Shown here piece after piece: positions 26,407 through 40,732 of a DNA stretch of 49,263 nt (positions are counted from its first letter, which is position 1; every line of letters starts with the position of its first letter). The stretch lies in contig NZ_JALEGG010000090.1 in assembly GCF_022763525.1 (NCBI RefSeq), forward strand, positions 1 through 49,263, in the 5' to 3' direction. The DNA is from Acidovorax sp. (GTDB lineage: Bacteria > Pseudomonadota > Gammaproteobacteria > Burkholderiales > Burkholderiaceae_C). Under the pieces are notes generated by a model, which searched no databases, was not told where the DNA came from, and saw only the letters and a list, made by a program, of their open reading frames with translations. Position numbers and translations under genes: made by a program.

Positions 26407-26482
26407 GCCGGTGTAGCTCAGTCGGTAGAGCAGCTCATTCGTAATGAGAAGGTCGGGTGTTCGATTCATCTCTCCGGCACCA
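26407..26482 (+). tRNA. tRNA-Thr(CGT)
   Basis: 76-nt cloverleaf, anticodon loop TTCGTAA, encoded CCA; closely resembles E. coli thrW. Confidence 0.95.
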
Positions 26483-32220: not shown

Positions 32221-32297
32221 TGGTCGGCGTGGCGGGATTCGAACTCGCGACCCCTTGCACCCCATGCAAGTGCGCTACCAGGCTGCGCTACACGCCG
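32221..32297 (-). tRNA. tRNA-Pro(GGG)
   Basis: 77-nt cloverleaf, CTTGC-ATGGGGT-GCAAG anticodon arm, encoded CCA. Confidence 0.95.
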
Positions 32298-35829: not shown

Positions 35830-36882
35830 TCACTGAAACTGCGACAGGAAACGGATGTCGCCGTCAAAGAACACGCGCAGGTCATTCACGCCGTAGCGCA
35901 GCATGGTGAGGCGGTCGGGGCCCATGCCGAAGGCAAAGCCGATGTACTTTTCGGGGTCCAGCCCCATGTTGCGCACCACGTTGGGGTGCACTTGGCCGGA
36001 GCCGGCCACTTCCAGCCAGCGGCCGGCCAGCGGGCCAGTCTGGAACTGGATGTCGATCTCGGCGCTGGGCTCCGTGAAGGGGAAGAAGCTGGGCCTGAAA
36101 CGCAGCACCAGATCATCGCTTTCAAAGAAGGTGCGGCAGAAGTCGGTGAACACCACCTTCAGGTCCTTGAAGCTCACGTTCTCGCCAATCCACAGGCCCT
36201 CGCACTGGTGGAACATGGGCGAGTGCGTGGCGTCGCTGTCCACGCGGTAGGTGCGGCCCGGGGCGATCACACGGATCTCGGGCATGGCCTGGCCGGCGTC
36301 GAGCAGAGCGCGGTGCTTCTTCACATGCTGCACCGCATGGCGGATCTGCATCGGGCTGGTGTGCGTGCGCAGCAGGTTGGGGGCGGTGGCAGTGCCGCCC
36401 TCTACGTAGAAGGTGTCGTGCATGGAACGCGCGGGGTGATCTTCCGGCGTGTTCAGTGCGGTGAAGTTGAACCAGTCGGTCTCGATCTCGGGGCCCTGGG
36501 CCACGTCGAATCCCATCGAGCCGAAGATGCCCTCGATGCGCTCGAGCGTGAGCGACACGGGGTGCAGTCCGCCCTGCCCGCGCTGGCGGCCCGGCAGGCT
36601 CACGTCCAGCGCTTCGGCCTTGAGCTGGGCCTGCAGTTCGGCATCGGCCAGGGCTTGGCGGCGTGCCGTCAGCGCGCCTTCGATGGCCTGCTTGGCAAGG
36701 TTGATGGCTGCGCCGCGGGATTTTTTCTCCTCCACGGACAGCTGTGCCATGCCTTTCATGAGCTCGGTCACGCGGCCCGACTTGCCCAGAAACTGCGCTT
36801 TGGCGTTTTCCAGATCTGCAGGGGTGGCGCTTTGGGCGAACAACTGCGTCGCGCTCTCGACCAGGGAATCCAACTCGTTCAT
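35830..36882 (-). CDS. pheS: Phenylalanine-tRNA ligase alpha subunit
   Basis: [73 protein letters not shown]. Confidence 0.97.
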
Positions 36883-36896
36883 ACCGACTCTTTCAA

Positions 36897-36976
36897 GATT
36901 TACGCAAACAAGGACGCACAAGCAAGCAACATCTCCATGCGGCAAGCGTCTTGCCGGAACCTGCTTTGCGTAAATC
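36897..36976 (-). promoter_or_regulatory. pheS leader structure: 12-bp inverted repeat enclosing a 7-bp hairpin
   Basis: Minus strand GATTTACGCAAA (36976..36965)...TTTGCGTAAATC (36908..36897), enclosing CGGCAAG-ACG-CTTGCCG. Confidence 0.6.
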
Positions 36977-37002
36977 GTTCTTTATCGACTCGTGAAAATG
37001 AA

Positions 37003-37036
37003 CAAGGGCTAGCGCCTTTTCAAGCCCTAGCCCTTG
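37003..37036 (-). terminator. Strong hairpin between rplT and pheS (terminator- or attenuator-like)
   Basis: CAAGGGCTAG-14 nt-CTAGCCCTTG, followed on the minus strand by TTCATTTT. Confidence 0.5.
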
Positions 37037-37042
37037 CTGTTA

Positions 37043-37073
37043 TTGCGCAAGCAGCTATCAGAACGATAGCTGC
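37043..37073 (-). repeat. Dispersed repeat, copy D (partial)
   Basis: Minus strand AGCAGCTATCGTTCTGATAGCTGCTTGCGC. Confidence 0.5.
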
Positions 37074-37084
37074 TCATCGTGAAC

Positions 37085-37444
37085 TCAAGCAGCCAGCTTG
37101 GCCTTGACTTGCTCCACGATGCTGCCAAAGGCAGCCTTGTCGTGCACGGCGAGATCGGCCAGCATCTTGCGGTCGATCTCGATGGATGCCTTCTTCAGGC
37201 CGTTGGCGAACTGGCTGTAGGTCAGGCCCAGTTCACGAGCAGCGGCGTTGATACGGGCGATCCACAGCTGGCGGAACACGCGCTTCTTGGTGCGGCGGTC
37301 ACGGTAGGCATATTGCCCAGCCTTCATCACCGCCTGCTTGGCGATGCGGAAGACGTTACCGCGGCGACCACGGAAGCCCTTGGCAAGGGCGAGAACTTTC
37401 TTGTGACGGGCACGGGCCGTTACACCACGTTTGACGCGAGGCAT
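37085..37444 (-). CDS. rplT: 50S ribosomal protein L20
   Basis: [51 protein letters not shown]. Confidence 0.98.
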
Positions 37445-37857: not shown

Positions 37858-38460
37858 TCAGGCCGCGTTACCCGCCGACGAGGCGCTTTCTGCTGCAGGC
37901 TTTGCAGCCGCAGGCTTCTTCTTGCCAGGGGCAATCATCATGATCATCTGGCGGCCTTCCAACTTGGGGAACTGCTCGATGATGATGGAGTCGGCCAACT
38001 CGTCGCGGATACGATTGAGCAGCGCCAAACCCAGCTCCTGGTGCGTGATTTCACGGCCACGAAACCGCAGCGTAATCTTGCACTTGTCTCCATCCGCCAA
38101 AAACCGGCGGATGTTGCGCATCTTGATGTTGTAGTCGCCATCGTCCGTGCCCGGACGGAACTTGACTTCCTTGATCTCGATGACCGTCTGCTTGGCCTTG
38201 GCCTCGGCAGCACGCTTTTGCTCCTGGTACTTGAACTTGCCGTAGTCCATCAGGCGGCAAACCGGGGGGTTCGCCGTAGCGGCAATTTCCACCAAGTCCA
38301 CATCCAGCTCACCCGCCATGCGCAGGGCTTCCATCAGACTCACAACGCCCAGCGGCTCGTTGTCAGGACCGGAAAGACGAACTTCCGGAGCCATGATTTC
38401 ACGGTTCAGGCGGTGCTTGCGCTCTTCGCGCTGACGACGATCACGAAATTCAGTAGCGAT
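37858..38460 (-). CDS. infC: Translation initiation factor IF-3, predicted rare ATC start codon
   Basis: Frame extends upstream of the first ATG as (ATC)[30 protein letters not shown]-like AAGGAAG upstream of ATC; IF-3 C-terminus. Confidence 0.93.
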
Positions 38461-38547: not shown

Positions 38548-40467
38548 TCAGGCTTTGGTGGCGATGTCTTGGGCGATCAACTCTGCGAACGCTTCGACGG
38601 ACATCACGCCGAGGTCACGATTGCCCCGGCCACGCACTGCGACGGCGCCAGCCGCCTTTTCCTTGTCGCCAGCGACGAGGATATAGGGCAGCTTTTGCAA
38701 CGAATGCTCACGTATTTTATACGTAATCTTCTCATTGCGCAGATCCGTCACCACCCTAAGGTCTTGATTCGGCAGCGCTTTTTGCAGTTTTGCGGCAATT
38801 TCGCGACAGTAATCGGCCTGTGCATCGGTAATGTTGAGCACCGCCACCTGCACCGGTGCCAGCCACACCGGGAACGCACCCGCATAGTGCTCGATCAGCA
38901 TGCCGATGAATCGTTCCATGCTGCCCACTGTGGCGCGATGCAGCATCAGCGGACGCTTGCGGCTTCCGTCCTCGGCCACGTACTCGGCATCCAGACGCTC
39001 GGGCAAATTGGGGTCGATCTGCATCGTGCCGCACTGCCACTGGCGGCCCAGCGCGTCCTTGAGGGTGTACTCGATCTTGGGACCATAAAACGCCCCCTCG
39101 CCTTCGGCGATTTCGAATTCACAGCCCGAATGGCGCAAGCCGTCCATCAGCGCCTTCTCTGCGCGATCCCACGCCTCGTCGGTTCCGATGCGCGCTTCGG
39201 GCCGCGTGGCCACCTTGTAGATGATGTCGGTGAAGCCGAAGTCCTTGTAGACCTTCTGCACCAGGGCCGTGTAGTTGGCGCACTCTTCCTGCACCTGCTC
39301 TTCGGTGCAGAAGATGTGGCCGTCATCCTGCGTGAAGCCGCGCACGCGCATGATGCCGTGCAGGCCGCCCGTAGGCTCATTGCGGTGGCAGGCGCCAAAT
39401 TCGCCATACCGCAGCGGCAGGTCACGGTAGCTCTTGATGCCCTGCTTGTAGATCAGGATGTGCCCAGGGCAGTTCATCGGCTTGAGCGCATAGTCGCGCT
39501 TTTCCGATTCGGTCGTGAACATGTTGTCGCGGTACTTGTCCCAATGGCCCGTCTTCTCCCACAAGCTCTTGTCCAGGATCTGAGGACCCTTGACCTCCTG
39601 GTACCCGTTGTCGCGGTACACGCGGCGCATGTACTGCTCCACCTCCTGCCACAGCGCCCAGCCCTTGGGGTGCCAGAACACCGTTCCGGGCGAATGCTCG
39701 TCCATGTGAAACAGGTCCAGTTCGCGGCCCAGCTTGCGGTGGTCGCGCTTTTCAGCCTCTTCCAGCATCGTCAGGTATTGCTGCAGCTCTTCCTTGGTAG
39801 CCCACGCGGTGCCGTACACGCGCTGCAGCATTTCATTGCGATGGTCCCCGCGCCAATAGGCACCAGCCACTTTCATCAACTTGAAATGCTTGAGCTTGCC
39901 CGTGCTGGGAACGTGCGGGCCACGGCACAGATCTTCGAAGTTGCCTTCGCGATACAGACTGACATCCTCATTGGTCGGGATGCTGGCGATGATCTCGGCC
40001 TTGTAGTTTTCACCCAGGCGTTTGAAGTACGCCACAGCCTCATCGCGTGGCAGCACGCGGCGCACCACAGGCTCATCCTTCGCAGCCAGTTCCCCCATGC
40101 GTTTCTCGATCGCTACCAGGTCTTCGGGCGTGAAAGGACGCTTGTACGCAAAGTCATAGAAGAAACCGTTCTCGATCACGGGGCCGATGGTCACTTGGGC
40201 GTCGGGGAACAGCTCCTTCACGGCATAGGCCAGCAAGTGCGCAGTGGAGTGGCGGATGACTTCCAGGCCATCAGGATCCTTGGCCGTGACGATAGACAGC
40301 GGGCTGTCGGCCGTGATCTGGTAGCTGGTGTCCACCACTTTGTCGCCGATCTTGCCCGCCAGCGCTGCCTTGGCCAGACCCGACCCGATGGATGCGGCCA
40401 CCTCGGCCACAGTGACGGGCCCCGGAAACTCGCGCTGCGAACCATCTGGAAGCGTGATATGGATCAT
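38548..40467 (-). CDS. thrS: Threonine-tRNA ligase
   Basis: TGS domain [55 protein letters not shown]. Confidence 0.98.
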
Positions 40468-40529
40468 GGACTCCTACTCTTTCTTTTCAATCAGTACGGA
40501 AGGGTGCGGGCACGCGCCAAGCCCAAAAC

Positions 40530-40557
40530 AAAAAAGCGCGGAACAGGTCCGCGCTTT
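40530..40557 (-). terminator. Intrinsic terminator/attenuator in the thrS leader
   Basis: Minus strand AAAGCGCGGA-CCTGT-TCCGCGCTTT-TTT: 10-bp perfect stem and U-tract upstream of the thrS start. Confidence 0.85.
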
Positions 40558-40599
40558 GGAGGGAGGTGTGCAATCTCGTGCAGGCGCGAACAGCCAGCC

Positions 40600-40641
40600 T
40601 CAGCGGCTGGTCAACATCTCCGATGTAGTTCGCGGTGTCAT
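40600..40641 (-). CDS. Candidate thrS leader peptide MTPRTTSEMLTSR (4 Thr in 13 aa)
   Basis: ATG ACA CCG CGA ACT ACA TCG GAG ATG TTG ACC AGC CGC TGA; AAAGG 10 nt upstream; ends 42 nt before the terminator stem. Confidence 0.72.
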   Translation of the reverse strand: MTPRTTSEMLTSR

Positions 40642-40703
40642 AACCAGATTGCCTTTCTCGCTCTTGTGCAGTGAATTTCCATGCATTTTAACCCCGCCGA
40701 AAG

Positions 40704-40732
40704 CAAAAAGCCCGAAGCAGGCGCTTCGGGCT
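40704..40732 (-). terminator. Rho-independent terminator after aceA
   Basis: Minus strand AGCCCGAAGCGCCTGCTTCGGGCTTTTTG. Confidence 0.88.

Follow-up and report, generated by a model that had tools for sequence, protein, structure and literature searches.

The leader upstream of thrS in Acidovorax sp. is in all probability a leader-peptide transcription attenuator: its sequence, and that of its relatives, points to control of the threonyl-tRNA synthetase (ThrRS) gene through sensing of charged Thr-tRNA. The analysis computed the anatomy and conservation of this leader, its enrichment for threonine (Thr) codons, its terminator, and its competing complementarities, and scanned for an E. coli-type operator, which is absent. 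Attenuation was the reading offered in the initial annotation. Comparison with relatives now supports it through a conserved open reading frame (ORF), early Thr codons, the recurrence of Thr-run ORFs with terminators across the order Burkholderiales, and the missing operator.

The window, the whole 49,263-nucleotide stretch of DNA analysed, carries on its minus strand the genes aceA, thrS, infC, rpmI, rplT, pheS, and pheT, in that order. The thrS start codon is an ATG at 40467 (minus strand). The features relevant here, all on the minus strand, are:

40685..40690, minus strand: TAAAAT, a -10-like element and candidate leader promoter (from sequence; the -35 element is weak)
40652..40659, minus strand: GAGAAAGG, putative leader ribosome-binding site (from sequence), about 10 nt before the ATG
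40600..40641, minus strand: leader ORF MTPRTTSEMLTSR, 13 codons, four of them Thr (from sequence and family conservation)
40628..40634, minus strand: region 1, CGCGAAC, within codons 3-5 (7 bp with region 2)
40594..40610, minus strand: small hairpin around the stop codon, CCAGCC-GCTGA-GGCTGG (from folding)
40584..40591, minus strand: region 2, GTTCGCGC, partner of region 1 or region 3 (from complementarity)
40547..40554, minus strand: region 3, GCGCGGAC, inside the terminator 5' arm (from complementarity)
40527..40557, minus strand: intrinsic terminator with a 10-bp stem, a 5-nt CCUGU loop, and a U-tract (from a terminator scan)
38548..40467, minus strand: thrS, threonyl-tRNA synthetase, the gene under putative control (TIGR00418, 723 bits)

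The ORF reads ATG ACA CCG CGA ACT ACA TCG GAG ATG TTG ACC AGC CGC TGA, and matches base for base (40641..40600) the 13-codon frame with four Thr codons described initially. The three regions and their pairings were likewise reproduced: region 1 pairs perfectly with region 2 over 7 bp, and region 2 pairs with region 3 over 8 bp, including one G-U. A terminator with a U-tract had been placed ahead of the thrS ATG, and the scan recovered it, with the stem-loop alone at 40557..40533 and the U-tract tail beyond. The 151-nt leader has a folding energy of -57.0 kcal/mol, compared to -43.0 (sd 4.1) for shuffled sequences (z -3.4), and none of 200 shuffles did as well. No T-box or other Rfam family matched the leader at the gathering or a relaxed threshold; one match, to DUF805b, was taken as chance (10.9 bits, versus a gathering score of 35.6).

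These elements suggest a model for control, in which ORF translation, ribosome stalling, termination, and read-through are the inferred steps. RNA polymerase would start near 40678 (minus strand), as judged from the -10-like element, and a ribosome would translate MTPRTTSEMLTSR. With Thr-tRNA plentiful, the ribosome would clear the early Thr codons, reach the stop codon, and depart; region 1 would then pair with region 2, the terminator (3:4) would form, and transcription would end before thrS. With Thr-tRNA short, the ribosome would stall at Thr codon 2, 5, or 6 with its footprint over region 1, leaving region 2 available to region 3. This would block the terminator and allow transcription of thrS, perhaps along with infC and genes further downstream.

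The leader is strongly conserved in the Comamonadaceae. Among the thrS upstream regions of 110 loci (some species are represented twice), 95 contain the ORF motif, and 86 of these 95 have an upstream -10-like hexamer, which most often precedes the leader ATG by 49-50 nt. The spacing in the Acidovorax window, 49 nt, is the commonest. Most leaders also keep the ribosome-binding site. Codons 1-5 (ATG ACA CCG CGA ACT) are nearly invariant: among 87 distinct leaders, ATG and ACA at codon 2 are present in all 87; CCG at codon 3 and CGA at codon 4, in 86 each; and codon 5 is ACT or ACG throughout. Heterozygosity is 0.00-0.02 at codons 2-5, versus 0.65 in the pre-terminator spacer. Codon 14 is the stop in 66/87 leaders, and TGA, TAA, and TAG are all used. 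Conservation of frame, start, and stop position, with three different stop codons, is what the short ORF of a leader-peptide attenuator should exhibit, and suggests that the ORF is translated. Conservation of the hairpin around the stop codon is incomplete: depending on the position, 43-63 of 66 leaders are paired.

The motif is also specific to this locus. Of 101 family genomes, 72 contain the 18-mer GGTTATGACACCGCGAAC a single time each, and none contains its reversed control. All 30 copies whose position was checked lie on the same strand as thrS, 121-204 nt upstream; the 18-mer was not found elsewhere in the genomes. Within four genes of the window, ACA and ACT account for 3/100 and 4/100 of Thr codons, and CGA for 2/134 of Arg codons. 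Rare conserved codons are expected of an attenuator sensor. Since ACA, ACT, and CGA also contain region 1, sensor-codon and pairing reasons for their conservation are inseparable in this family.

Which of the Thr codons could act as sensors? With a footprint extending about 15 nt past the first base in the P site, a ribosome held at any of codons 2, 5, and 6 would lie over region 1, which spans ORF bases 8-14, whereas one held at codon 11 would already have passed it. This geometry makes codons 2 (ACA), 5 (ACT), and 6 (ACA) the likely sensors. Conservation fits: codons 2 and 5 are fixed as Thr; codon 6 is Thr in 69/87 leaders, through ACA, ACG, or ACC; and codon 11 is Thr in only 44/87. The initial proposal that a ribosome stalled at the Thr codons would mask region 1 is thus plausible for codons 2, 5, and 6, but not for codon 11.

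The analysis also covered 87 dereplicated thrS upstream regions from families of the order other than the Comamonadaceae, without a motif anchor. Among small ATG ORFs in these regions, Thr is enriched at z 15.9, ahead of Met at 6.0 and Arg at 5.5, and its score in loci outside the order is 1.9. Enrichment for the cognate amino acid, as in leader-peptide attenuators, is thus present. Examples of the peptides are MSFRTTTTGTLNQG, MFKRTTTTRISR, MQLNRTTTTS, MFRTSTTTQS, MQRTSTKTITYLG, and MTPRTTTTICERR, and the Thr runs use synonymous codons. A rule requiring at least two Thr codons and an Arg-Thr-type anchor identified a Thr-rich ORF in 38/87 loci. About half of the loci have no recognised leader, which may have been lost or have gone unrecognised. 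Dropping four doubtful leaders and adding three with a single Thr gave a set of 37, from about 20 families. Each of the 37 has a terminator downstream, 21-62 nt from the stop codon; over all leaders examined, an intrinsic terminator lies behind the ORF in 130/132. The computable checks suggested in the initial annotation thus came out largely in its favour: leader ORF and early Thr codons are conserved in the family, and Thr-run ORFs with terminators recur across the order with different helix sequences.

Evidence for the competing pairings comes from two levels. Within the Comamonadaceae, 1:2 and 2:3 are found in nearly all standard leaders; Polaromonas leaders keep MTPRT and have no GTTCGCG region 2. 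Alignment of the three pairings, a check suggested by the initial annotation, found them conserved but showed no covariation: the core pairs of 1:2, 2:3, and the terminator are frozen in 66 leaders. Because these pairs never vary, covariation here speaks neither for nor against the pairings. At the order level, helices differ between families (TTCCGAA/TTCGGAA, GCACGAA/TTCGTGC, CGAACT/AGTTCG). Complementarity between spacer and terminator 5' arm (2:3) exceeds that of shuffled spacers (Stouffer -5.5, Fisher 9e-6), as does that between ORF and spacer (1:2; Stouffer -3.0, Fisher 9e-4), so both an antiterminator and a competing region 1 are detectable, as in a leader-peptide attenuator. Among the controls, the terminator 3' arm was not significant (p 0.11) and the reversed 5' arm was weakly so (p 0.03); part of the 2:3 signal is therefore compositional.

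We also used an equilibrium-type calculation with ribosome masks to fold the transcript at the stage when the 3' arm of the terminator has yet to emerge. For 93 family leaders, the mean predicted sequestration of region 3 was 0.43 with no ribosome, 0.78 with a Thr-stalled ribosome, and 0.75 with a ribosome at the stop codon. The corresponding order-level means, 0.55 (free), 0.60 (stalled), and 0.47 (stop), give a weak contrast. The model thus supports a difference between stalled and free ribosomes in the Comamonadaceae, but not between stalled and stop-codon ribosomes. To account for termination under plentiful Thr, it requires that the terminating ribosome be released so that 1:2 can re-form.

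One feature of the leader is more conserved than pairing would predict. Across the order, the codon pair CGA-ACU hardly varies, and it persists in leaders whose 1:2 pairing is undetectable. Pairing as the sole cause of this conservation was considered and found only partly supported (6/37 leaders at p<0.05, Fisher 0.005). It is conceivable, although we consider it rather doubtful, that CGA-ACU (in the Comamonadaceae, after ACA CCG) has a function of its own and that something besides pairing maintains it. It might, for example, be a site of programmed slowing or arrest, which could synchronize ribosome and polymerase or permit a sharp response to Thr-tRNA with only two Thr codons.

The same observations bear on the most durable of the alternatives, in which the ORF attenuates transcription without Thr specificity and reports either any slowing of translation or the slow reading of CGA, a rare Arg codon. 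Such a mechanism could account for the freezing of codons 2-5 as ACA CCG CGA ACT, with its rare codons; for the retention of CGA-ACU apart from 1:2 pairing; and for family leaders that have only two Thr codons, such as MTPRTQEISPLAL. It is nevertheless improbable: across the order it is Thr that stands out, far above Arg, and in runs of synonymous codons, and the leader directly precedes the gene whose product charges tRNA-Thr.

Less probable still is that the hairpin is a plain terminator of upstream transcription (from aceA here; in other families, from tRNA-Val) or stabilises the 5' end, with thrS not attenuated at all. Many order-level hairpins do directly follow a tRNA-Val gene with no ORF between, and in family members that have no ORF, the hairpin stays near the promoter. 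However, aceA has its own terminator (40732..40709, minus strand), a promoter-like element lies between that terminator and the leader, and the position of the ORF stop, the Thr enrichment, and the ORF-hairpin spacing would be left unexplained.

Fifteen of the 110 family loci (Limnohabitans, Serpentinimonas, and others) have no leader ORF, and most of these retain a terminator-like hairpin. In five of the Comamonadaceae examples (loci L030, L068, L072, L053, and L077), a GCGCGG hairpin is kept, with a -10-like hexamer 7-30 nt before it. Termination at a hairpin so near the transcription start is expected to be inefficient, and one deletion might in this way have taken away both sensor and terminator function in these lineages. 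In other families of the order (loci L112-L130 and L164-L277), thrS often lies right behind a tRNA-Val gene, whose sequence gives a GAC anticodon, and at several of these loci a terminator-like hairpin alone, with no ORF, separates the two. The window itself contains genes for a tRNA-Thr (CGT) and a tRNA-Pro (GGG), at 26407..26482 (plus strand) and 32221..32297 (minus strand).

We give little credence to the view that the leader is mainly a small RNA, released by termination and acting on other targets. Nucleotide conservation of codons 1-5 does exceed what pairing needs, but the conserved start, frame, and stop position, together with the Thr enrichment, point to translation. Least credible of all is translational autorepression by ThrRS in the E. 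coli manner: this is the described control of thrS in that organism, exerted through hairpins that mimic the anticodon arm of tRNA-Thr (PMC11088916), but a scan of the 120 nt preceding thrS for an anticodon-like U-N-G-U-R hairpin within 60 nt of the start codon (chance rate about 0.006), which found one in 18/28 loci of the class outside the order, found none in 110 family and 87 order-level loci, and we rejected such an operator at this locus on its absence from all 197.

Attenuation through the leader peptide is thus the reading we prefer, and it places the thrS leader among several known systems. Leader-peptide transcription attenuators control enterobacterial amino-acid operons as well as pheST (through pheM). 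With these the leader shares a short ORF rich in cognate codons, the alternative pairings 1:2, 2:3, and 3:4, and an intrinsic terminator before the gene; with pheM-pheST it also shares a tRNA synthetase as the target. It differs in amino acid, gene, and lineage (Thr, thrS, and Burkholderiales); in the few Thr codons of the Comamonadaceae version, with codons 2-5 frozen at the nucleotide level; and in the location of region 1 at the very start of the ORF. T-boxes respond to the charging state of tRNA and likewise govern a terminator ahead of tRNA synthetase genes; in this leader, the sensor would instead be a translated ORF. The E. coli thrS operator controls the same gene, but acts on translation initiation through its anticodon mimic.

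A Thr-dependent leader peptide, thrL, has been proposed upstream of thrS in Streptomyces lividans (PMC8079986). It belongs to a different phylum and has no sequence similarity to the leader described here; moreover, thrL (MKRVRPFLETTPGFVPAR) has a leaderless start and, according to its authors, no clear Rho-independent terminator (PMC8079986). The initial annotation, which pointed to no described Thr-peptide attenuator of thrS in betaproteobacteria, thus needs the Streptomyces proposal added to it; for the betaproteobacteria, the open-access literature that we searched yielded none. Nor does a survey of premature terminators describe one in its main text (PMC2965389). Leader-peptide attenuation is a classical mechanism; the Burkholderiales thrS case is one for which we found no description in the open-access literature.

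Two neighbouring genes deserve comment. No Phe-rich leader ORF was seen by eye between rplT and pheS (36880..37085, minus strand), and a pheM-like attenuator before pheS appears to be absent from the window; the same gap contains a hairpin, AAGGGCTAG...CTAGCCCTT, whose T-tract is weak. The infC gene apparently begins at a non-standard AUC (38458..38460, minus strand) that follows a GGAAG motif; the first in-frame ATG, at 38394, comes 22 codons later. In E. coli, the infC start codon is AUU.

Together, these results suggest that thrS in a large bacterial group is under a Thr leader-peptide attenuator, whereas gammaproteobacteria outside the order keep repression through a ThrRS operator. In the sampled loci, operator and Thr leader look mutually exclusive, and one thrS control system appears to replace the other within the order, which would make this a clear case of one regulatory mechanism swapped for another at a single gene. 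Conserved small ORFs before thrS, otherwise easily ignored or misannotated, thereby gain an explanation. Moreover, the rare-codon sensor of the Comamonadaceae, only two to three codons long, would be a useful test of the minimum number of codons that an attenuator requires. For the physiology of these bacteria, it is very probable that many members of the order raise ThrRS when charged Thr-tRNA runs short, instead of relying on self-repression as E. coli does.
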